Virus record (IMG/VR): IMGVR_UViG_3300036770_003572
Span: 1-33,398 of that record
Direction: 5' to 3' (one strand)
From: a virus
Length of the DNA stretch: 33,398 nucleotides
Shown one piece after another: positions 407 to 33,398 of the stretch; within the stretch, counting starts at the first letter, position 1; the number at the start of each line of letters is the position of its first letter. Under the pieces are notes generated by a model. That model did no database searches. It was not told the DNA's origin and worked only from the letters and a program-made list of their open reading frames with translations. A program made the position numbers and the translations under genes.

Positions 407-1020
407 TTACATACAACCTCTTTCCTACGGCTGTCGCCAAGTTTGAACTTGGACGGGACTACACCGCCGAGGAAATGGCGTTTGTGGACGAGCAGCCGAC
501 GCACAGCAACATGGGCAACACGACGAGCGATGATCGCTATGTACTGCGTCACGACACGATGGCAAGCCTCAAGGCGTTTGCCGAGGCCAGCGTCAACGAG
601 TATCTGCGCTCTATCTACGCGCCGAAACACGACGTTACGCTGCGCTTGACGCAATCGTGGCTGAACTACACCAAGGCCGGTCAGTACCACCACAAACACG
701 CGCATCCAAACTCGTTTGTGTCTGGAGTGCTGTACCTCAAGGCTGCCCGTGAGCGGGACAAGATTTACTTTTACAAAGACGGCTATCAGCAGATCAAACT
801 GCCGACCGACAACTACAATCTCCACAACAGCGATTCGTGGTGGTTTGAGGTTGGCGCTGGCGATTTGATGTTGTTTCCGTCAAGCCTGACGCACATGGTG
901 GAAACCGTGCAGGGCGATGATCGAGTATCTTTAGCGTTCAATACGTTCCCGGTGGGATACGTCGGGGACGAGAGCAGTTTAACGGCGTTGCATCTTGAGA
1001 ATACTCAAGGCGCAGCGTAA
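403..1020 (+). CDS. 2OG-Fe(II) oxygenase, phage prolyl-hydroxylase-like family
   Basis: This 205-residue protein resembles the putative 2OG-Fe(II) oxygenases of the TIGR02466 type, which couple oxidation of a substrate to decarboxylation of 2-oxoglutarate. Residues 96-111 read HHKHAHPNSFVSGVLY, supplying candidate metal ligands (H99, H101) before the conserved SGVxYL strand. Residues 158-181 contain FPSSLTH, with distal ligand candidate H164, then DRVSLAFNTF with R174 as the likely 2OG carboxylate partner. The start is GTG, chosen because it overlaps the upstream stop as GTGA. It lies between a tail-fibre end and structural genes, so a virion or cell-surface protein is a possible substrate, but the true substrate cannot be told. 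Family is clear; substrate is unknown. Confidence 0.85.
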   Translation: MITYNLFPTAVAKFELGRDYTAEEMAFVDEQPTHSNMGNTTSDDRYVLRHDTMASLKAFAEASVNEYLRSIYAPKHDVTLRLTQSWLNYTKAGQYHHKHAHPNSFVSGVLYLKAARERDKIYFYKDGYQQIKLPTDNYNLHNSDSWWFEVGAGDLMLFPSSLTHMVETVQGDDRVSLAFNTFPVGYVGDESSLTALHLENTQGAA

Positions 1021-1372
1021 CGATTTTCCACAGTTTTATGCGGAGTATGCGTTATCGGATTTAGGAATCTTCATGCACAAACTGCCGGAAGCCTTTATGC
1101 CCGTCATCAAGGCCGACATCCAGCAGCGAGGCATGGTGCATCCGATCATCGTTTACTCACCTTACGAGCAGTACCAGACCGACCCCAATCCGGTGCTGCC
1201 CGATAAGGAAAGTTGGAGGAGAGAGATACTACGGGTGTACATGGGACACAAAAGGGTGTGGGTGGCGACCAAACTAGGTTACTCGCACATTTCTGCGTAC
1301 CATGTACGGACTGATAAACAGGCTAGGGCGTTGTGCGCCCATACGACGATTAAAGAGTTTTGCCCAAATTGA
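995..1372 (+). CDS. ParB/sulfiredoxin-fold-like phage protein
   Basis: The 125-residue reading opens at TTG 995, overlapping the oxygenase by 26 bases. An alternative ATG at 1073, preceded by TTAGGA, would give 99 residues. The segment IKADIQQRGMVHPIIVYSP followed after a variable loop by GHKRVWVATKLGYSHISAY matches the ParB-N pattern (helix, G-x-x-x-P-I-I-V strand, then GxxRxxAxxxLG). The fold is seen in partition CTPases, nucleases, sulfiredoxin and some phage DNA-modification enzymes. No helix-turn-helix or second domain is attached, so a plasmid-partition role is unlikely. Fold assignment is moderately sure; activity is unknown. Confidence 0.6.
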   Translation: MRILKAQRNDFPQFYAEYALSDLGIFMHKLPEAFMPVIKADIQQRGMVHPIIVYSPYEQYQTDPNPVLPDKESWRREILRVYMGHKRVWVATKLGYSHISAYHVRTDKQARALCAHTTIKEFCPN

Positions 1373-1381
1373 GGATTGGTT

Positions 1382-1768
1382 ATGGCACATTTTGCTGAAT
1401 TGGACGAGAACAACGTCGTTAAGCGCGTCATCGTTGTAGACAACAAGGATACGTCTGACGCCAACGGCAACGAGATCGAGAGCATCGGCGTGGCGTTCTG
1501 CCAGAAATTGCTCGGCGGTAACTGGGTACAAACTTCGTACAACGGTAACTTCCGCAAGAACTATGCTGGTGTTGGCTACACCTACGATGCTTCTCTTGAC
1601 GCTTTTGTGGCGCCGCAGCCATACCCGTCATGGGTGCTGGATGCTAATGCGCAATGGCAAGCTCCGGTGCCGATGCCGTCTGATGCTGGTACGGGCGAGC
1701 CACCAAAGATGTACTCGTGGGATGAAGCCACGCAGTCGTGGGTTGAGGCACCTGTTCTGGGAGTCTGA
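1382..1768 (+). CDS. Conserved phage structural-region protein (MAHFAELDE family)
   Basis: The protein has 128 residues. ATG 1382 is preferred over an in-frame TTG at 1376 because GAGG at 1371-1374 gives a good ribosome-binding site. It opens MAHFAELDENNVVKRVIVVD and contains GGNWVQTSYNGNFRKNYAG and YTYDASLDAF. This family is widespread in marine and freshwater phages next to tail genes, where it is generally annotated as a virion or tail-associated protein of unknown role. Trp- and Pro-rich segments near the C-terminus suggest a small beta-rich domain. I infer a structural or tail accessory role from family distribution and context. Confidence 0.65.
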   Translation: MAHFAELDENNVVKRVIVVDNKDTSDANGNEIESIGVAFCQKLLGGNWVQTSYNGNFRKNYAGVGYTYDASLDAFVAPQPYPSWVLDANAQWQAPVPMPSDAGTGEPPKMYSWDEATQSWVEAPVLGV

Positions 1769-1770
1769 TT

Positions 1771-2256
1771 ATGATGACAATGGTCTCGACCTTCCTGTCG
1801 TTCTTAGCAGGCGGGTTGCCCAAAATCCTGCAAATCTTCCAAGATCGACAGGATAAGAAGCATGAGTTGGCCCTCGTTGCGGCACAGAAAGAGCGCGAGT
1901 TGGCCCTTGCCGAACGGGGCTTTCTCGCGCAGGCGCGCGTGGAAGAGATCAAGCTCGAACAGATCCAGGTGCAGACCGCAGCCGAAGAGCGTGTGGCGCT
2001 GTATCAGCACGACATGGAGATTGGCAAAGGCGCAAGCCAATGGATGATTAACCTCCGCGCCAGCGTCCGTCCAGTTGTGACCTACATCTTCGTGCTGGAG
2101 CTGGTAGCCATCAACATCGCTGGTGTGTGGTACGCCTACAACACGGGTGTTCCGTTTGCCGCTGCGATGGCAGAAGTATTCTCAGATGACGAGATGCTGA
2201 TCCTGTCTTCAATTATCGCCTTTTGGTTTGGTACCCAAGCATTCGGCAAGAAGTGA
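1771..2256 (+). CDS. Holin of the three-transmembrane GTA type
   Basis: This 161-residue protein has a hydrophobic N-terminus (about 3-22), a long charged coiled-coil helix (about 24-85) and two further membrane segments (about 101-122 and 142-158). The RASVRPVVTY entry to the second segment and this layout match the 3TM holin family described from gene-transfer agents (PF11351). It would form lesions in the inner membrane and release the endolysin encoded two genes downstream, which has no signal peptide. Two ATG codons stand in tandem at 1771 and 1774. The stop overlaps the GTG of the following homing endonuclease. Confidence 0.75.
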   Translation: MMTMVSTFLSFLAGGLPKILQIFQDRQDKKHELALVAAQKERELALAERGFLAQARVEEIKLEQIQVQTAAEERVALYQHDMEIGKGASQWMINLRASVRPVVTYIFVLELVAINIAGVWYAYNTGVPFAAAMAEVFSDDEMLILSSIIAFWFGTQAFGKK

Positions 2257-2801
2257 CAGCGGTATACCACATTAGGGAACGATCAAGCCTTGCGCTTGAT
2301 GAAGGGTACGTTGGAATCAGCGTAAACCCTGCTGTTAGGTTTTACCAACACAAAAATGCTGCAAAGACTCGCCGCAATCATTTATCAAACGCTATTAAAA
2401 AGTATGGCGACGAGATATGTGTTGATGTTATTGCGTCGGATCTTAATGAAGATCTTGCGCGGTTTTTAGAAAAAATGCTTCGTCCATTTGAAAACATGGG
2501 GTGGAATACATGTATTGGAGGTGGCATCCCTCCAAACCCAAAAGGCAAGGAAAGGCCAGAGGCTTACCGTAAAAACATATCTATTGCCAAACTTGGTAGC
2601 AAGAATCCGATGTTTGGTAAAAAGATTGTATTTTCGGACAGTCACAAAAAAAAATTATCTACTGCATTGAAAGGCAAGCCAAGCAAACTAAAAGGGGTTT
2701 TAAGGTCAAGAGTGGCTTGCCCTAAATGTGGGGTAACTGGCGGTGATGGTGCAATGTACCGCTGGCATTTTGAAAATTGCAGATATGAAAGTAAGCCCTG
2801 A
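2253..2801 (+). CDS. GIY-YIG homing endonuclease with NUMOD3 motif and C-terminal zinc module
   Basis: The 182-residue protein uses GTG 2253, overlapping the holin stop as GTGA; an upstream TTG at 2223 would lie inside the holin gene. The GIY-YIG nuclease domain shows Y5, YVGIS at 19-23, NPAVRFYQH with R29, and E73, in the places expected for catalytic residues. A NUMOD3 DNA-binding repeat (SIAKLGSKNPMFGKK) lies near 110-124, and C156, C159, H172 and C176 form a probable zinc site in CPKCG...WHFENC. Base composition is clearly more A+T-rich than the neighbours, a sign of transfer. It sits between holin and endolysin and overlaps both, so it inserted without breaking their expression. Confidence 0.88.
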   Translation: MTAVYHIRERSSLALDEGYVGISVNPAVRFYQHKNAAKTRRNHLSNAIKKYGDEICVDVIASDLNEDLARFLEKMLRPFENMGWNTCIGGGIPPNPKGKERPEAYRKNISIAKLGSKNPMFGKKIVFSDSHKKKLSTALKGKPSKLKGVLRSRVACPKCGVTGGDGAMYRWHFENCRYESKP

Positions 2802-3276
2802 TCTTATTAAACTTGTGAAATGCCATGAGGGTGTCCGAACCCGCCCGTACCAATGTCCGGCGTTAATCTGGAGCGTGGGGGTGGGTCACGTAATAGATCC
2901 TGCTCACTTGGCGGTGAAGTATGAGGAGCGCCGGAATCTACCGATACCCGAGGGCTGGGACCGGATTCTCACGATGGACGAGGTGGACCGGATACTTTCT
3001 CAAGACCTTGGCCGGTTTGAGCGTGGTGTGGTTCGACTTTGCCCTGCTGCTGTTGGCCGTCAGGGAGTCTTCGATGCTCTCGTATCTTTTGCCTTCAACG
3101 TGGGCCTCGGCAATCTCCAACGCTCTTCCCTTCGGATGAAGACCAACCGGGGGGAGTTTGACAAGGCGGCGGAAGAGTTCATGAAATGGACCAAGGCCGG
3201 TGGTAGAGTATTGCCTGGATTAGTGAAGCGGCGTAATGACGAGCGTGCGCTGTATCTATCGGGAGTGGGCGAATGA
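2785..3276 (+). CDS. Endolysin, glycoside hydrolase family 24 lysozyme
   Basis: This 163-residue protein cleaves peptidoglycan glycan strands. ATG 2785 is chosen because MKVSPDLIKLVKCHEG then begins as family members do; the frame is open further upstream. The catalytic glutamate is E15 in HEGVRTRPY. The second position of the T4-type triad (E, D at +9, T at +15) is Cys24 here and the third is Ser30 in IWSVGVGH. E-C-T is known from phage P1 lysozyme, so Cys is tolerated; Ser is a further change. The C-terminal PGLVKRRNDERALYL is typical of the family. No signal peptide or SAR helix is seen, so export depends on the holin. Confidence 0.88.
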   Translation: MKVSPDLIKLVKCHEGVRTRPYQCPALIWSVGVGHVIDPAHLAVKYEERRNLPIPEGWDRILTMDEVDRILSQDLGRFERGVVRLCPAAVGRQGVFDALVSFAFNVGLGNLQRSSLRMKTNRGEFDKAAEEFMKWTKAGGRVLPGLVKRRNDERALYLSGVGE

Positions 3277-3488
3277 AAGTGTCCCTTGAACCACGGACCA
3301 CGGACCTTGGTCTAATCGAACCCGCGCACGTAATAGAAGTCTATTGCGGCGCCTGTGGGTACGATCTGGACGAGGCGGAACTCAATGCCGACACCTGTTC
3401 GGACTGTGGGCAGGCGTTGAACCTGCGACAACATGTATCCATTCAGGTGACAACCATCCCCGCTGCCAGCGGAGCCACGTTGCCATGA
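3273..3488 (+). CDS. Small zinc-ribbon protein
   Basis: This 71-residue protein starts by ATGA overlap with the endolysin stop. Two CxxC pairs (C25/C28 in CGACG and C42/C45 in CSDCG) form a likely zinc ribbon, in an otherwise acidic domain. The N-terminal stretch EPRTTDLGLIEP is encoded by the repeat CCACGGACCACGGACC, which belongs to the dispersed repeat family described in the findings. Nucleic-acid or protein binding is possible; no enzymatic motif is present. The next gene overlaps its stop by ATGA. Confidence 0.7.
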   Translation: MKVSLEPRTTDLGLIEPAHVIEVYCGACGYDLDEAELNADTCSDCGQALNLRQHVSIQVTTIPAASGATLP

Positions 3489-3676
3489 GAAAGGCCAAAG
3501 CAAAGAGCAAGGTCAACGCTGCTGGCAACTACACAAAGCCGAGCATGCGCAAGCAGTTGTTCGAGTCCATCAAGGCTCGGGCGGTGCAGGGCACGAAAGC
3601 AGGACAGTGGTCCGCGCGCAAGGCACAGCTATTAGCAAAGAAGTACAAGGAGAAGGGCGGTGGATACCGGGACTGA
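3485..3676 (+). CDS. Small basic protein, DUF5872-like N-terminal half
   Basis: ATG 3485 overlaps the previous stop as ATGA and gives 63 very basic residues. The core KPSMRKQLFESIKARAVQG then GQWSARKAQLLAKKYKEKGG resembles the segment of phage and algal-virus DUF5872-like proteins that contains GQWSARKAQL and ends in GGGY. In proteins of that kind I recall this module being followed by a second one like the product of 4070-4303, so the two genes here may be a split version. DNA binding is plausible from the charge but not shown. The family name is from memory and should be tested. Confidence 0.55.
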   Translation: MRKAKAKSKVNAAGNYTKPSMRKQLFESIKARAVQGTKAGQWSARKAQLLAKKYKEKGGGYRD

Positions 3677-4073
3677 TCTTGAACTATTCAAGGCACAGGT
3701 TCAGGCGGAACTGAACCGCTTGGAAGCGAAGTCCTCTGCCAAGGAAGTGGCCGGAAAAGCCATCGGCAAGGACGGCCTGAAGTACATCACGGCGATCGTC
3801 GTGATCGGTGTGTTGTCGAGTCTTGCTTTGGATGGCGAGAAGATCGCTGCGGTGATGGGCCTTCTTGGCGCGTCGCTCACGGCCCTTATCTCAATGCTAG
3901 CCAGCATCGCCGGTGCCAGCGAGAAGGAAGAGAAGCCTGAATTTGGCGTGATCAAGGATCTGATTGCGAAGCTCGACAAGCTCGATCGTAAGGAACAGCC
4001 CATGCGCGTGGACGTGGAAGGCGATCACGTGACCGTGACCAAGGGCGATGACGTTGTGCAGGCCAAGCGATGA
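3660..4073 (+). CDS. Small two-helix membrane protein, holin-like candidate
   Basis: The 137-residue protein starts at GTG 3660, preceded by AAGGAGAAGG inside the previous gene. An N-terminal amphipathic helix is followed by membrane segments at about 41-58 (KYITAIVVIGVLSSLAL) and 62-85, then a charged C-terminal tail with a short coiled coil. This hairpin topology and the place in the lysis region suggest a second holin, antiholin or other membrane-active lysis factor, but small membrane proteins diverge fast and no family is certain. It lies between two genes that look like halves of one protein family, and its stop overlaps the next start as ATGA. Confidence 0.6.
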   Translation: MDTGTDLELFKAQVQAELNRLEAKSSAKEVAGKAIGKDGLKYITAIVVIGVLSSLALDGEKIAAVMGLLGASLTALISMLASIAGASEKEEKPEFGVIKDLIAKLDKLDRKEQPMRVDVEGDHVTVTKGDDVVQAKR

Positions 4074-4303
4074 GGGCCCCGCAACAGTCACTGAAGAACT
4101 GGACCGCTCAAAAGTGGAGGACGAAAAGTGGTAAACCGTCTAGCAAAACTGGTGAGCGATACCTCCCAGAGGCTGCGATCAAAAGTCTCAGCCCTCAAGA
4201 ATACGCTCGTACAACGGCTGCAAAGCGTAAAGGCAAAGCTAAAGGGAAGCAGTTCGTAAAGCAGCCGAAGTCGATTGCTCGCAAGACCGCTCAGTATAGG
4301 TGA
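4070..4303 (+). CDS. Small basic protein, DUF5872-like C-terminal half
   Basis: The 77-residue, Lys/Arg-rich protein starts by ATGA overlap. It contains SLKNWTAQKWRTKSGKPS, TGERYLPEAAIKSLSPQEYA, and KGKQFVKQPKSIARKTAQYR. This arrangement of W-x-x-x-x-WRTKSGKPS, GERYLPExAIKxLS and GKQFVxQP is one I associate with DUF5872-type proteins of aquatic phages and large algal viruses, usually C-terminal to the GQWSARKAQL module found here in the gene at 3485. It is possibly DNA-binding or virion-packaged because of its charge. No catalytic residues are evident. Confidence 0.55.
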   Translation: MRAPQQSLKNWTAQKWRTKSGKPSSKTGERYLPEAAIKSLSPQEYARTTAAKRKGKAKGKQFVKQPKSIARKTAQYR

Positions 4304-4306
4304 GTC

Positions 4307-4744
4307 ATGGCTAGTGTGAAGAAGAATGCGATTGGGCAGGAAATCCGCAAGTCGTACGAGCGTGGCCAGAAGGGCTGCCCGGAGGCGACGATGGATATCC
4401 ACATCAACCTCAAGAATCGCAACAACGCCATCAAGGAGTACGGCTACGGCCCCCTAAACCCGGAAGCCGAGTCACGTGCGTTCTGGGACAAGAAGGCCGA
4501 GCTCTGGGCGACCACCGTGCGGGAGGCCAAGAAGGCGCGCTGCGGCAACTGCGCCGCCTTCATCCAAACCCCGCAGATGATGACATGTATCGAGAACGGC
4601 ATCGAGGATCCAAGCGAGGAACACGAAAACTACGCTCCGGATGTGGCCGCTGCGGCCAACTTGGGCTACTGCGAGCTCTTTCACTTCAAGTGCGCAGGCG
4701 ATCGCACGTGCGACGCGTGGCTCGTCGGCGGTCCAATCAAGTAA
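4307..4744 (+). CDS. Cysteine-rich conserved phage protein, probable metal-binding
   Basis: This 145-residue protein begins MASVKKNAIGQEIRKSYERG. Its C-terminal half carries a conserved-looking Cys pattern: CGNCAAF, MMTC, LGYCELFHFKC and RTCDAW. The spacing suggests bound metal or an iron-sulphur site, and the Trp/Gly-rich ending (CDAWLVGGP) resembles small phage proteins of unknown role found before tail genes. The start follows a weak AGGTGAG Shine-Dalgarno. No membrane segment or signal peptide is seen. I do not recognise a characterised homologue. Confidence 0.6.
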   Translation: MASVKKNAIGQEIRKSYERGQKGCPEATMDIHINLKNRNNAIKEYGYGPLNPEAESRAFWDKKAELWATTVREAKKARCGNCAAFIQTPQMMTCIENGIEDPSEEHENYAPDVAAAANLGYCELFHFKCAGDRTCDAWLVGGPIK

Positions 4745-4753
4745 TATGCAGCC

Positions 4754-6607
4754 ATGGCATACTTCAGACTGTTTCTCAAGCCGGGTGTAGACAAGCAGAA
4801 CACCGAATACGGCGCAGAAGGCGGCTGGATCGACTCCGATTACATCCGTTTTAGGTATGGCTTGCCCGAAAAAATGGGCGGCTGGACGCAGTTTGGGGAT
4901 TCCCCGGTCTATTTGGTCGGAATGCCCAGCGAAGTGTATGCCTGGAACGACCTCGAAGGCGTTCCTTACCTTGTGGTGGGTACCAACCGCAAGGTTTACA
5001 TCTATTACGGGGGTAATTGGTCGGACATCACCCCTATCCGAGACACCGAAACTGGCGTTACCTTCGACACCGTGGACACCGAAACCCGTGTCGTGGTCAA
5101 CGACACGGCACATGGGTGTATTGTCGGGGATTTCGTCACCCTTTCTAGCGTTACTGGCGACCCAGGCGGCATTCCAAACGCCAGTTTGACCGGTGAGTTT
5201 GAGATCACCGAGGTCATCAGTACGGGGGAGTACGTTATTCAATCCCCCGTTGCAGCGACCAGCACGGCAACGGCGGCGGGAACGGCCGATGCGGCCTACC
5301 AGATCACGGTAGGGTCGGATGTAAGCTATTTTGACTTTGGTTGGGGCACCGGCACGTGGGGGCTTAGTACATGGGGAACACCTCGACCGGCATCTGCCGC
5401 CCTTGCATTAAACTCTAGTGTTTGGCAGTTCGATAACTTTGGCGAAAAGCTCATATTGCAGCTAGTGGACGGGGGAATTTACGAGTGGGACCCCAACTCA
5501 GGTGTCAGCACTCGTGCTTCGGCTATTTCTGGCGCTCCGACCAAAAGCAAGTACGCGTTGGTGTCTACCCCAGACCGGCACTTGGTGTGTTTTGGTACTG
5601 AATCAACGATCGGCACCCCAAGCACGCAGGACACCATGTTTGTGCGCTTTTCGAACCAAGAAGACCTTAATACATTCGCTGCAACCGCTACTAACACGGC
5701 CGGCGGCCAGCGGTTAACCGACGGAAACGAGATTATTTCCGCATTACGGTCGCGTGGCCAGATTTTGATCTGGACGGACACGGCTTTGCACAGCATGCAG
5801 TACGTCGGGCCGCCGTATACGTTTGGGTTTCAACAGTTGGGTGCAAATTGCGGCCTTATTGGTCCTCATGCGTCGGCAGACGTAAACGGCGTGGCGTATT
5901 GGATGGGCAAGGACGCGTTCTTCGTCTTTGACGGTACCGTCAAGAAGCTCGCATGTTCTGTTCAGGACTACATATACGACGACATCAACCTTATTCAAGC
6001 CGAAAAAGTACATGTCGGAATTAATACACAGTTCAACGAGGTTACTTGGTGGTATTGCACGGCGGATAGCGACTACATCAATCGCTTTGTCACGCTTAAT
6101 TACCTAGAAAACGTATGGTCCGTGGGCACGATGCCTCGCACGGCATGGCTGGACCTTGGTGTGTTCAACAAGCCACTTGCAACCACGTATGACCCGGACG
6201 GGACCGAAGCGACGTTGACCACGATCCACGGACTAACGCCGGGGCGCTCTCGGATTTACAACCAAGAGGACGGGAAGAACGCCGATGGCGCGCCCATCAC
6301 GTCCTACGTTAAGTCTGGTTACTTTGATATCGGCGATGGCGATCAGATGCTGTACATGCGTCGATTTATCCCGGACTTCAAGAATCAGGAGGGCGATCTG
6401 GTTGTTCACTTGCTCCTCCGACCCTACCCGCAGTCCTCTGCGGTTCCGAGCTCACTGGATCCTTATGTGATCACTCCTACGACGGATAAAGTCGATACTC
6501 GGGCGCGTGGACGGCAGATTAGTCTGCGGATTGAAAGTACGGATGTTGACACGAACTGGCGCTTTGGCACGATGCGTGTCGATATCCAGCCGGACGGCTT
6601 GCGATGA
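4754..6607 (+). CDS. Virion protein, candidate P22 gp10-like neck/stabilisation protein
   Basis: The 617-residue protein opens MAYFRLFLKPGVDKQNTEYG and continues WIDSDYIRFRYGLPEKMGGW, a start typical of a large beta-rich tail or neck protein of podovirus-like aquatic phages, often annotated as a packaged-DNA stabilisation protein like P22 gp10. Repeated short beta segments with Trp-Gly and Asp-Gly turns (GWGTGTWGLSTWGTP, DAFFVFDGTVKK) suggest a propeller-like fold. An inserted Thr/Ala/Ser-rich domain lies at about 95-180. It ends with ATGA coupling to the next structural gene. Structural assignment is strong; the exact gp10 equivalence is inferred. Confidence 0.65.
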   Translation: MAYFRLFLKPGVDKQNTEYGAEGGWIDSDYIRFRYGLPEKMGGWTQFGDSPVYLVGMPSEVYAWNDLEGVPYLVVGTNRKVYIYYGGNWSDITPIRDTETGVTFDTVDTETRVVVNDTAHGCIVGDFVTLSSVTGDPGGIPNASLTGEFEITEVISTGEYVIQSPVAATSTATAAGTADAAYQITVGSDVSYFDFGWGTGTWGLSTWGTPRPASAALALNSSVWQFDNFGEKLILQLVDGGIYEWDPNSGVSTRASAISGAPTKSKYALVSTPDRHLVCFGTESTIGTPSTQDTMFVRFSNQEDLNTFAATATNTAGGQRLTDGNEIISALRSRGQILIWTDTALHSMQYVGPPYTFGFQQLGANCGLIGPHASADVNGVAYWMGKDAFFVFDGTVKKLACSVQDYIYDDINLIQAEKVHVGINTQFNEVTWWYCTADSDYINRFVTLNYLENVWSVGTMPRTAWLDLGVFNKPLATTYDPDGTEATLTTIHGLTPGRSRIYNQEDGKNADGAPITSYVKSGYFDIGDGDQMLYMRRFIPDFKNQEGDLVVHLLLRPYPQSSAVPSSLDPYVITPTTDKVDTRARGRQISLRIESTDVDTNWRFGTMRVDIQPDGLR

Positions 6608-29054: not shown

Positions 29055-29299
29055 CCCGCGACGACATCATCCGACTGGCGCGAGAGGCGGGGATTGTAGA
29101 TTGGAGTTTGCATGGACGACTTGAGTCAAAAGAAGAAGCCCTTGAACGCTTCGCCGCCCTCGTTGCCGCAGCCGAGCGGGAAAAGGTAGCCGCGTGGATG
29201 ATTGAACGTGACTATGCCACCGGCCACGGCGACACCATTGAGGGTTTGTTGAAGGCATTGGAATGGCAGGCTAAGGAACGTGCGAGAGGTTTTTTATGA
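29051..29299 (+). CDS. Small protein of the ERFAALVAAAERE type, copy 1
   Basis: ATG 29051 overlaps the previous stop; the 82-residue product starts MTRDDIIRLAREAG and contains LERFAALVAAAEREKVAAW. This helical, acidic module is extremely common in phages and prophages, often in accessory operons, without known function. The following gene is a diverged second copy with the same ends. Its tail (DTIEGLLKALEWQAKERARG) is different from copy 2. The pair is a local duplication or serial recruitment. Confidence 0.6.
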   Translation: MTRDDIIRLAREAGIVDWSLHGRLESKEEALERFAALVAAAEREKVAAWMIERDYATGHGDTIEGLLKALEWQAKERARGFL

Positions 29300-29532
29300 C
29301 CCACGACGACATCATCCGACTAGCGCAGGAAGTTTGGTCTGCTGGCGATGTTTACATTGGCCCAAGCACCGAATCACTTGAACGCTTCGCCGCCCTAGTT
29401 GCCGCAGCCGAGCGGGAGGCGTGTGCGAAGTTGTGTGAGGAAATCGCAAGGCGCAATGAGGAGGAATGCGACATTGATTGGGTGACGGGCAATATGGAAT
29501 GCGCCGACTATATCCGTGCGAGGGGAACATGA
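29296..29532 (+). CDS. Small protein of the ERFAALVAAAERE type, copy 2
   Basis: The 78-residue product starts MTHDDIIRLAQEVW and shares LERFAALVAAAEREA with copy 1, the DNA of that block differing at only a few silent positions. The C-terminal part (KLCEEIARRNEEECDIDWVT, ECADYIRARG) is Cys-containing and resembles the usual ending of this protein type. It is coupled by ATGA to both neighbours. Role unknown. Confidence 0.6.
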   Translation: MTHDDIIRLAQEVWSAGDVYIGPSTESLERFAALVAAAEREACAKLCEEIARRNEEECDIDWVTGNMECADYIRARGT

Positions 29533-30493: not shown

Positions 30494-30865
30494 GTGCCGT
30501 ACAAGGACCGCGAGACACGGCTCGAGAAACAGCGGGAATACTCGCGGCGTTGGTATCTCAAGAATCACGCGCATGCGCTGAAGCAATCAGCGCGCACGAA
30601 ACAAGAATCACGGGCCAGGTGGTTCGAGTACAAGTCCAAGCACCCTTGCGCGAACTGCGGCTATTCTCACCCTGCCGCGATCGACTTCCACCACGTCATC
30701 AAAAAGGGCAAGCGTTCGGTGAACTGGCTCGCCGTGAAACAAAATAACCTCACCGCCGCGATCCGAGAGGCGGAGGAGAAGTGCATACCTCTCTGCTCGA
30801 ACTGCCACCGGGTGTTGCACTGGGAAGAACAGCGGGGTATAAAGGCCAGGAGAAAGAAGAAATGA
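30494..30865 (+). CDS. HNH endonuclease with zinc-ribbon core
   Basis: GTG 30494 directly abuts the acetyltransferase stop. The 123-residue product has a basic N-terminal helix and then CANCGY (C52, C55), the IDFHHV segment with D64, H66 and H67, and CIPLCSNCHRVLHW with C101, C104 and H105, the standard H-N-H fold. It would cut double-stranded DNA using a divalent metal. No NUMOD or AP2 DNA-recognition repeat is attached, so specificity is unclear; homing or an auxiliary nuclease are both possible. It overlaps the next ORF by ATGA. Confidence 0.85.
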   Translation: MPYKDRETRLEKQREYSRRWYLKNHAHALKQSARTKQESRARWFEYKSKHPCANCGYSHPAAIDFHHVIKKGKRSVNWLAVKQNNLTAAIREAEEKCIPLCSNCHRVLHWEEQRGIKARRKKK

Positions 30866-31046: not shown

Positions 31047-31277
31047 ATGAATACAGATAAGACTGATAGTTACGCGTTTATAGCGTTGATTGCGTTACTT
31101 GTCGGCCTGGCGTTCAGTATCGCAGGCACGATCGTTTACAAAAGCTATCTGCGCACTACCTACCTCGAAGGGTCCCCAGATCCTATCGAAGCCGCCTGTG
31201 CGTTTGATTCAGGCGAACAGCAGATCCCGCCCTCCTGCATGGCTTACATGCTCCAACAAAAGGAAAACATCCGATGA
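31047..31277 (+). CDS. Small membrane protein with cysteine-bearing tail
   Basis: ATG 31047 follows GAAAGGAGAAC. The 76-residue product has a membrane segment AFIALIALLVGLAFSIAGTI followed by a polar tail with two cysteines (CAFDSGEQQIPPSC), which could form a disulphide if it faces the periplasm. It is not a lipoprotein (no lipobox) and no signal-peptidase site is clear. Function is unknown; it ends in an ATGA overlap with the next gene. Confidence 0.55.
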   Translation: MNTDKTDSYAFIALIALLVGLAFSIAGTIVYKSYLRTTYLEGSPDPIEAACAFDSGEQQIPPSCMAYMLQQKENIR

Positions 31278-31801
31278 AAGCTCGTACTAAAAAGTTCAAA
31301 AAGTCTGACTTCACCACCAAGGCCTACCAGTGGTTCCTCGATAACCCCGGTGCGAAGGTCCGTAGCGTCGCCGAACGCTTCAATATCTCCATTCCCTACG
31401 CCTACAAGCTGCGGGACAAGGCGGCTGGCAAGCCCACCAAGACGGCCGAGGGCGTGAAGTTCCTCACCGAACGCGGGAAGCTTCTGGACAAGGTGCTGAA
31501 GGAGATGGACGCGATCGCACCGAAGACCGATACAGTGGACACGATCCTCGACTCACGGGCCAAGGACTACGGCGCGTTCGCCGATAACGCCCGGCTCGCC
31601 CAGGCACTGAAGCGCGCCATGGCCGACCACGCCGACGAAATGGGAAGCCTCTTCTCTGACGAACAGTGGGAAGCCCTCGAGATGATCGCGACCAAGATGT
31701 CACGAATCGTGAACGGCAACCCCGACAAGATCGACAACTGGGACGATATCGCCGGCTACGCCAAGCTCGTGGCTGACAAACTCCGAGGAACTATCAGATG
31801 A
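31274..31801 (+). CDS. HTH fused to DUF6378-like (MazG-like) domain
   Basis: The 175-residue product has a basic N-terminus, a helix-turn-helix-like part at about 17-50 (AKVRSVAERFNISIPYAYKL), and a C-terminal helical domain from about 90. That domain has ILDSRAKDYGAFADNARLAQ, EALEMIATKMSRIVNG and DNWDDIAGYAKLVADKL. This pattern (E/DxRxxxYG, K-x-xRIxxG, DNWxDIAGYAxL) resembles DUF6378, a MazG-like all-helical group. Known MazG proteins hydrolyse NTPs or (p)ppGpp; whether the residues for that are present here is not proven. The HTH suggests DNA binding or sensing. Confidence 0.65.
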   Translation: MKARTKKFKKSDFTTKAYQWFLDNPGAKVRSVAERFNISIPYAYKLRDKAAGKPTKTAEGVKFLTERGKLLDKVLKEMDAIAPKTDTVDTILDSRAKDYGAFADNARLAQALKRAMADHADEMGSLFSDEQWEALEMIATKMSRIVNGNPDKIDNWDDIAGYAKLVADKLRGTIR

Positions 31802-32229
31802 TCGGCATCAACGTCTTGCTGCGGCGGATGTACGGGGGCGACGAGAGCGTCCAGGCGTACACCAACGCCCTGAACAAACCCCTCACCCGGCTTTGGCTGG
31901 GTGAGGACGACGCCCTGCATCTACGCTTTGCCGACGGCACGGGACTGCGGTTCCGTGACGAGGGGCAGAACTGCTGCGAGCACCGCTACATGCGGACCGA
32001 TGACGATCTCTCCCATTTCGTGGGGGCGACGTTCACCGGGGCGGAAATCAAGGACGCCTCTCTGCTGCAGCGGATGGACGAGTGGGGTAGTGAGCACGAA
32101 GTGCAGTTCCTCGAGATCCACACGGACCGAGGGTCGTTCACCATGGCCAGCCACAACGAACACAACGGCTACTACGGTGGCTTCTCGTTGGAGGTGAGCA
32201 CAGAGACGGATGAGGAGGCCGAATGTTAA
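31798..32229 (+). CDS. Small conserved phage protein, DUF7448-like
   Basis: The 143-residue protein starts by ATGA overlap. It contains LHLRFADGTGLRFRDEGQN and CCEHRYMRTDDDLSHFVG, then EVQFLEIHTDRGSFTMASHN and HNGYYGGFSLEV. The NEHNGYYGGF ending and LxIxTDxGxxTxxxHN strand pair are conserved in phage proteins of the DUF7448 kind. A beta-rich fold with several His and two adjacent Cys could bind metal. No enzyme activity can be assigned; its stop lies 7 bases inside the next gene. Confidence 0.6.
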   Translation: MIGINVLLRRMYGGDESVQAYTNALNKPLTRLWLGEDDALHLRFADGTGLRFRDEGQNCCEHRYMRTDDDLSHFVGATFTGAEIKDASLLQRMDEWGSEHEVQFLEIHTDRGSFTMASHNEHNGYYGGFSLEVSTETDEEAEC

Positions 32230-32462
32230 GACCTGCCATAAACAGCACAGAGGACCCGCCACAGCCGGTGGAAGACCTGGCTATGCGGGAGTACATCTTC
32301 GCACTGCGTCGCCGTATCGAGGTCCAGGACTGTCTCGTAGAGGCGCTCACGGAGGAGATCAAGCAGCTCAAGGACGAACGGGATGGCCTGAAGGCACAAG
32401 TCGAGAGCCTGCTCCTCGACTTGCACTGGATGGATTCCAAGCGCAAGATCCAGACTGTATGA
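32223..32462 (+). CDS. Small coiled-coil hypothetical protein
   Basis: The 79-residue product has a disordered start and a long helix with heptad spacing, MREYIFALRRRIEVQDCLVE to LTEEIKQLKDERDGLKAQVE, followed by SLLLDLHWMDSKRK. It is likely to self-associate. It overlaps both neighbours (7 and 4 bases). No function can be assigned. Confidence 0.55.
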   Translation: MLRPAINSTEDPPQPVEDLAMREYIFALRRRIEVQDCLVEALTEEIKQLKDERDGLKAQVESLLLDLHWMDSKRKIQTV

Positions 32463-32692
32463 AACACATCAACTTCGTCACGACCGATGACATGCCGCTC
32501 GTACAGATGGTGGTCGTCACCATCAACGGGACGCGCTACGGGCTCGTAGGCCCCGTGGTCCACGTGCCAGGGACCATGGACCAGGACCTCGACGTGTCGG
32601 AGATCGAGTTCGGCGAGATCATGCCGGCCCATGCGGCCGCCAAGATGCTCCAAGGTGAGTTTCGGAAAGTCATGGGAACAGAAGTTCAGTAG
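32459..32692 (+). CDS. Small hypothetical protein closing the accessory operon
   Basis: ATG 32459 overlaps the preceding stop as ATGA; the 77-residue product has beta strands (LVQMVVVTINGTRYGLVGPV) and an acidic helical end (EIEFGEIMPAHAAAKMLQGE). No family was recognised. The DNA for PVVHVPGTMDQ contains the reverse complement of the dispersed repeat (CCGTGGTCC, 32553-32561). The stop is followed by a structured untranslated region and the terminator. Confidence 0.55.
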   Translation: MKHINFVTTDDMPLVQMVVVTINGTRYGLVGPVVHVPGTMDQDLDVSEIEFGEIMPAHAAAKMLQGEFRKVMGTEVQ

Positions 32693-32700
32693 CTAGCCTA

Positions 32701-32746
32701 GGCGGCGCTCCCTAGAGAGGGTTTAACCCAGCCCTTACCTGCCGCC
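32701..32746 (+). other. Structured 3' untranslated region before the terminator
   Basis: GGCGGC (32701-32706) can pair with GCCGCC (32741-32746), enclosing CCCT/AGGG and the perfect 11-base palindrome GGGTTTAACCC (32719-32729). The gap from 32693 to 32773 has no ORF worth calling. The fold may protect the operon's 3' end or form a small RNA; this is inference. Confidence 0.4.
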
Positions 32747-32747
32747 A

Positions 32748-32775
32748 CCCCGCATCGAAAGGTGCGGGGTTTTTT
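32748..32775 (+). terminator. Strong intrinsic terminator of the accessory operon
   Basis: CCCCGCA (32748-32754) and TGCGGGG (32763-32769) form a 7-bp G+C-rich stem with an 8-base loop, followed by TTTTTT (32770-32775). This is a textbook Rho-independent terminator for plus-strand transcripts and stops them before the convergent HNH gene, whose stop codon overlaps the T-run. Confidence 0.9.
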
Positions 32776-33112
32776 ATGGGGACGACACAAGATGTCTAAG
32801 AATTTCGTATCGTAACGACCGTGGGTACTTGGTCTCGGTCAGGTTTTCAATCCGATTATCAAAGGGCTTGTCGTTTACGTGACGTAACACGTTCTTTGGC
32901 CACTCCCCATGGCAAAAAAGCCACGCTAGGTCTTCTGCCTTATACCGATAACCTTGGATGTGTATGATCCGGTGCATCCTGCCTGTGTAAGATCCAGCAG
33001 GCTTGTTGATGAATTTACGGCGGCGCGGGGAAGTGTCCTTCCAGTAAAAGGTGCCTGTCTTCGGGTTATAGCTCAACAGGCGTTGTAAGCGCTCCAAATC
33101 AGATTGGCTCAT
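32774..33112 (-). CDS. HNH homing endonuclease of the HNH_3 type
   Basis: ATG 33112, preceded on the minus strand by GAGGAG at 8 bases, gives 112 residues; the frame is open upstream through the structured region and that extension is rejected. The order FYWKDTSPRRR, NKPAGSYTGRMHRIIHIQGY, LAWLFCHGEWP and LRHVNDKPFDNRIENLTE matches the HNH_3/AP2-linked family of phage homing nucleases. RHVND carries the catalytic His; the usual Asp before this His is replaced by Arg. C-terminal DNA-contact sequence looks short (ending LRHLVSSP). Activity is uncertain; mobility is inferred from the family. Confidence 0.82.
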   Translation of the reverse strand: MSQSDLERLQRLLSYNPKTGTFYWKDTSPRRRKFINKPAGSYTGRMHRIIHIQGYRYKAEDLAWLFCHGEWPKNVLRHVNDKPFDNRIENLTETKYPRSLRYEILRHLVSSP

Positions 33113-33141
33113 CGTCGAATCTCCTCGATAGATGGGAAGTG

Positions 33142-33169
33142 GCTCTCCGGGATGTCCGTCCCGGAGAGC
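33142..33169. repeat. Perfect 11-bp inverted repeat upstream of HNH gene
   Basis: GCTCTCCGGGA (33142-33152) and TCCCGGAGAGC (33159-33169) pair around TGTCCG. It begins 30 bases before the HNH start codon on the minus strand, so it would lie in its mRNA leader. No T-run is found, so it is not a standard terminator. Confidence 0.8.
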
Positions 33170-33184
33170 TGCGACATTGTTGCA

Positions 33185-33201
33185 TGGTCCGTGGACCACG
33201 G
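33185..33201. repeat. Overlapping palindromes made from the dispersed GGACCACGG repeat
   Basis: TGGTCC-GT-GGACCA (33185-33198) and CCGTGG-A-CCACGG (33189-33201) are both perfect, sharing bases 33189-33198. The right part is an exact GGACCACGG (33193-33201). Such nested dyads are typical of protein-binding sites. Confidence 0.75.
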
Positions 33202-33261
33202 GCAAATCGGTTAGGGTGGTTCACTTGTCGAGTGATTAATGAGTCAACCTCTATTGTTAGT

Positions 33262-33323
33262 TAAGTGGGTAACGGGGTAAGTGGGTCACGGGGTAAGTGG
33301 GTCACGGATCAAGGACCACGGGG
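33262..33323. repeat. 16-bp tandem repeat array, iteron-like
   Basis: TAAGTGGGTAACGGGG (33262-33277), TAAGTGGGTCACGGGG (33278-33293) and TAAGTGGGTCACGGAT (33294-33309) are three consecutive 16-bp units. A degenerate fourth, CAAGGACCACGGGG (33310-33323), contains GGACCACGG. Regular direct repeats in non-coding phage DNA often mark a replication origin or a terminase/regulator binding site; which applies here cannot be told. Confidence 0.85.
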
Positions 33324-33327
33324 CAAA

Positions 33328-33398
33328 ATGACCTGCTGGTGGCCAAAAAGGCCCAAAAACACGGTCCTAGTAGAGGCTGGGAGGGGTCTAAAGAAAAT
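33328..33398 (+). CDS. Possible start of a rightward gene, truncated by window end
   Basis: ATG 33328, preceded by GGGG at a short distance, opens a frame without stop to the last base: MTCWWPKRPKNTVLVEAGRG and LKK. It lies after the non-coding repeats and may be the 5' end of a gene that continues beyond the window. Twenty-three codons are too few to judge coding status. Confidence 0.25.
   Translation, partial: MTCWWPKRPKNTVLVEAGRGLKK

Follow-up and report, generated by a model that had tools for sequence, protein, structure and literature searches.

The right end of the window, by which we mean the whole 33,398-bp IMG/VR fragment analysed here (the complete record IMGVR_UViG_3300036770_003572), forms the left shoulder of a cis-acting element, conserved and most likely a replication origin, a reading in which we place about even confidence. 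Origin function is favoured over a terminase recognition site of the pac or cos type, which is possible but the less probable of the two. The element has the same parts in a fixed order, is conserved among relatives and is unique within the genome. It measures about 211 bp (about 211-250 bp) and could be read complete in contig L003, in which positions 804-3001 are identical to window positions 31201-33398 and which runs on past the right end of the window. A first-pass annotation had suggested a functional site from a 16-bp repeat array, a hairpin and dyads concentrated near this end, and had guessed first at an origin or a terminase site; a cis site is indeed present nearby, but the array is not that site, and both guesses remain the leading candidates for the conserved element and not for the array. 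The features are as follows, in window coordinates unless L003 is named:

32747..32770 (L003 2350-2373), + strand: intrinsic terminator, closing the rightward replication-gene operon
32774..33112, - strand: optional HNH endonuclease gene, 112 aa (PF13392 1.5e-6, phrog_99 8e-25)
33142..33169, no strand assigned: perfect hairpin of 11 pairs with a 6-nt loop, within the 5' leader of the HNH gene
33186..33201, no strand assigned: overlapping dyads GGTCCGTGGACC (33186-33197) and CCGTGGACCACGG (33189-33201), reverse-strand heptads
33262..33309, + strand: three direct repeats of 16 bp (TAAGTGGGTMACGGGG), expanded next to the heptad tract in this lineage only
33299..33321, + strand: heptad tract GGGTCAC GGATCAA GGACCAC GG, the portion of the observed repeats that is conserved
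33368..33398 (33368-33397 being L003 2971-3000), + strand: left arm of the conserved inverted repeat, from the arm alignment
L003 3025-3056: iterons, three GTAAT units of about 9 bp
L003 3122-3130: GCGCGCGCG, the CGCGCG box
L003 3152-3181: right arm

In L003, the gap between the start of the HNH gene and the next gene covers 2716-3234. The next gene, encoding 71 residues, starts at 3235 and precedes the small terminase gene, TerS (3447-4127). What had been described as the largest non-coding stretch of the window is not a whole intergenic region, since the window ends inside this gap. The fragment stops inside the left arm or at its inner edge, and this A/T-rich inverted repeat presumably broke the assembly there. 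Relatives such as DSL-LC04 (circular, 61.5 kb) show that about half of the genome, including the terminase, portal and capsid genes, is absent from the window. Phage records gave no direct DNA match to the sequence, a tRNA search found none, and the single Rfam match (H19_3, E 0.32) was below threshold and was taken as chance.

The order of parts in L003 is left arm, T-tract, iterons, GCGCGCGCG, T-tracts and right arm. The inverted arms of the element are 30-60 bp long, with an arm alignment score of 16.8 against a shuffle maximum of 12.2, and about 0.3 kb separates the element from the small terminase gene downstream of it, a distance that is nearly constant in relatives. For the comparison, a TerS search with 408 confirmed loci supplied 80; together with earlier loci and DSL-LC04 this gave 98 TerS-carrying loci, of which 90 had more than 700 bp upstream (8 were too short and were dropped), and these 90 upstream regions collapse to 58 distinct regions. 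An iteron pair is present in 57 of the 58 (0.9% of shuffles) and CGCGCG in 54 (2.8% of shuffles); the 58 regions are not independent, and counted per cluster the iteron pair occurs in 28, CGCGCG in 26 and the heptads in 21 of 29 clusters. Iteron pair, CGCGCG and heptad tract are nearly always found at one place. In eight of 11 genomes or long contigs the exact iteron trio is found a single time, in every case 418-456 bp upstream of TerS; the other three lack it. An A+T-rich tract beside the iterons is seen in the alignment of 11 relatives and in the element cores.

In 11 of 14 genomes or long contigs, no spaced inverted repeat is stronger than the one at the element; the exceptions are G001, G008 and HTVC027P, in which it is not seen. 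In HTVC023P the repeat is weak (13.8, shuffle maximum 15.2). In 29 of the 58 regions (read from the table), the spaced repeat outscores every other self inverted repeat and exceeds all 20 shuffles. The pelagiphage 023Pt_psg01 has the same plan with other iterons (TGGCACA, five copies), and HTVC023P has five copies of CTAGGAA; such differences would be as expected if the iterons track a diverging initiator. Perfect DnaA boxes TTATCCACA occur in L003 at 3094 (+), inside the element core, and at 4547 (-). The DnaA box was ruled out as a part of the element, being absent in near relatives.

The three exactly spaced 16-bp repeats reported at first are real. TAAGTGGGT starts at 33262, 33278 and 33294, a spacing of exactly 16 bp, TRF gives this as the top array in the window (period 16, 2.9 copies, 96% matches, score 85), and the array lies beyond every shuffle, its self-match score being 27 where 2000 simulated regions reached at most 12. 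When three mismatches were allowed, 2 of 100 shuffles also gave three array hits, so that single-unit matches are weak evidence and the significance lies in the tandem order. The 16-bp unit itself is built as 7+7+2 (GGGTCAC GGGGTAA GT), as in the second unit, the first having GGGTAAC instead of GGGTCAC. The degenerate fourth copy is present as sequence, but is a run of 7-bp units (33299-33321), and the window contains no other tract of this kind (chance 0.017 per window).

Apart from the window, only two IMG/VR records carry the 16-bp array, both identical over it, and it is therefore fixed in this virus. Among the 11 nearest distinct regions it occurs in L003 alone; as it is missing from the ten others (TerS identity at least 98.7%), the unit is not conserved. 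Conservation in related phages, the check put forward in the first-pass annotation, thus failed for the array, with only the 7-bp tract shared, and the array was ruled out as a conserved iteron set, being lineage-specific. The heptad pair (GGNYCAM)2 is found in 46 of the 58 distinct regions (shuffle rate 0.5%), in 44 of these 46 on the + strand and 479-579 bp upstream of TerS, and the place of the tract, left of the left arm, is fixed. We read the array as a heptad tract that has recently expanded locally; in relatives, the element does not need it.

For the array alone, a functionless slippage expansion of a heptanucleotide microsatellite is probable, and it is compatible with origin function of the element. 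The array is restricted to one virus, and GGNYCAM heptad arrays are spread over many bacterial phyla, the majority of them being uniform repeats (60 of at least 85 arrays, from a search whose pattern pre-selected such heptads, so that 60/85 gives no share among all repeats). Slippage does not account for a heptad pair that keeps its place in the 46 relatives, however. Heptads were also found in 108 stretches of viral contigs, and they are uninformative about the host, with many phyla among the matches listed. Heptanucleotide tandem repeats such as the Geobacter metallireducens elements, as presented in an excerpt of PMC2700814, likewise consist of tandem 7-bp units of the form GGNNNNN, but with a GGACCGG consensus instead of GGNYCAM, and the phage heptads form one short tract at a fixed site.

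The 11-bp perfect hairpin is likewise real and longer than any simulated stem (longest in 400 simulations, 9). It was found in two of the 58 distinct upstream regions, L003 and L058 (L058/L019), and a paired T-to-C/A-to-G stem change in the second copy suggests that it is a leader structure of the optional HNH gene. The overlapping GGACCACGG dyads are present as described at 33186-33201; with at most one mismatch, GGACCACGG gives 30 hits against 9.1 expected, and none of 100 shuffles reached as many. A protein search for relatives of the HNH gene returned the same contig only. In close relatives, the site left of the element carries various HNH-like genes or none and may be a homing hot spot. 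A second HNH-like frame lies at 30494-30865, and the start of the frame at 2223-2801, which overlaps a lysozyme-like gene at 2743, resembles by eye a GIY-YIG/NUMOD homing endonuclease.

We propose that a phage protein, perhaps an AEP-type primase or another partner, would bind the three GTAAT iterons and an inverted copy, that the T/A tracts flanking them, together with the CGCGCG box, could serve as a melting and bending zone, and that the inverted arms, like the heptad tract outside them, may provide extra binding or structural sites. The rightward fork would then copy the terminase and structural genes and the leftward fork the replication genes. Every protein role in this scheme, and origin activity itself, we infer; no RepA or O-like initiator protein was found. 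The origin of phage lambda is of the iteron type. With iteron-type origins such as the RepA origin of the ICP1 satellite PLE and those of plasmids, the element shares 8-9-bp direct iterons beside A/T tracts in a non-coding gap, and an excerpt of PMC7145576 describes PLE/RepA_N iterons as converging on a poly-A tract. Unlike these, it has long inverted arms that enclose the iterons and a CGCGCG box.

The GC-skew check proposed for an origin gave a mixed outcome, with a sharp change at the site in six of 14 genomes or long contigs. Six of 12 (G001, G002, G003, G005, G007 and G009) have a change at the element that ranks within the top 4% of positions, and no such change in sign and rank is seen in G004, G006, G008, G010, DSL-LC04 and HTVC023P; nor is it seen in HTVC027P, and in psg01 the skew is strongly reversed. 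The combined p is 0.014 over nine lineages, with psg01 and HTVC027P left out, inclusion of which would weaken it. For + strand genes, third-position skew shows a clear rise from one side of the element to the other in 8 of 12. Taken together, the skew results give moderate support for an origin. In psg01, the direction of the element follows the replication genes, though TerS is inverted.

A pac or cos site, with TerS bound to the iterons or the A-tract/CG box and packaging initiated by a TerL cut nearby, is possible, though we consider it rather unlikely. Closeness to TerS (about 265 bp from element to TerS start in L003, and nearly constant in relatives) fits packaging and an origin equally. 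The 226-aa gene has its matches among terminase small subunit families (phrog_51 1.5e-5), a PDB search with TerS giving no match, and the adjoining HNH gene is reminiscent of HK97-type cos loci, which have an HNH gene alongside. This gene is optional here, however; an HK97-type cos with a packaging HNH was rejected because constant linkage is lacking, the gene being absent in four of the 11 nearest distinct regions. Packaging also sits poorly with the lack of enrichment of contig ends (about 2 of 30 upstream ends inside the element, counted by eye, against about 2.6 expected), with an element direction that is not tied to that of TerS in psg01, and with arms that differ among phages with 99% identical TerS. 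According to excerpts of PMC9611059 and PMC11331095, published terminase recognition sites are located inside TerS or close to it, and that of HK97 has an A-tract. Judged by the same excerpts, the element resembles P22 pac, SPP1 pac and HK97/lambda cos in its position next to TerS and its A-tracts, and differs in lying outside TerS and in having inverted arms about 210-250 bp across.

The arms of one phage match each other better than swapped arms do (mean 18.9 and 12.1, permutation p 5e-5, 29 clusters), and yet the own partner arm ranks first in only 12 of 29. A foreign right arm is a far better match in L029, L030, L037, L063, L075 and others, and the left arm of L024 also fits another phage's right arm better than its own, which suggests exchange of arms among phages. 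That one element serves both the start of replication and packaging, its arms evolving in concert within a genome as exchangeable modules that recombination or structure keeps paired, is improbable; if true, it would be a form of phage origin without earlier description.

A purely regulatory role, with operators, promoters or inward terminators between the replication and terminase operons, is likewise improbable. The element does sit between a terminator-closed operon and the TerS operon, and some left arms form a hairpin with T's after it, but hairpin folding is not consistent across the arms (mean z -0.6, 38 arms), on which ground a pair of intrinsic terminators, with stable folding of both arms, was rejected. 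Moreover, a sigma-70-like promoter match is absent in L003 2250-3500, the HNH gene is optional, and the GC-skew shifts and the paired evolution of the arms are left unexplained. A switch between divergent transcripts, also suggested at first, is unlikely because the leftward HNH gene is missing in the same four of 11 nearest regions while the element stays, and a divergent promoter switch was ruled out by this and the missing promoter match.

The element is common to many related bacterial viruses and probably marks the start of genome copying or of loading into the shell. Relatives of this virus include the HTVC023P-type pelagiphages, reported in an excerpt of PMC9599517 to be widespread in the ocean; the literature searched gave no description of an origin for these phages or of the element. 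A defined element of about 250 bp makes direct origin and packaging tests possible in cultured phage, and the paired, swappable arms raise the question of how phage cis sites evolve.

Finally, some other repeats were observed. Dense GATCCGTGGCGCG-like repeats lie upstream of the large terminase gene at L003 9200-9500, and in G001 and G008 the best inverted repeat, of the adjacent type, lies about 5.8 kb beyond TerS, roughly at the counterpart of this region. Blocks of 16-20 bp in 29059-29170 and 29304-29406 of the window are repeated about 236-245 bp apart, resembling a duplicated small gene pair, and a tail gene contains a 16-bp perfect palindrome, TTGACGGTACCGTCAA, at 5928-5943.
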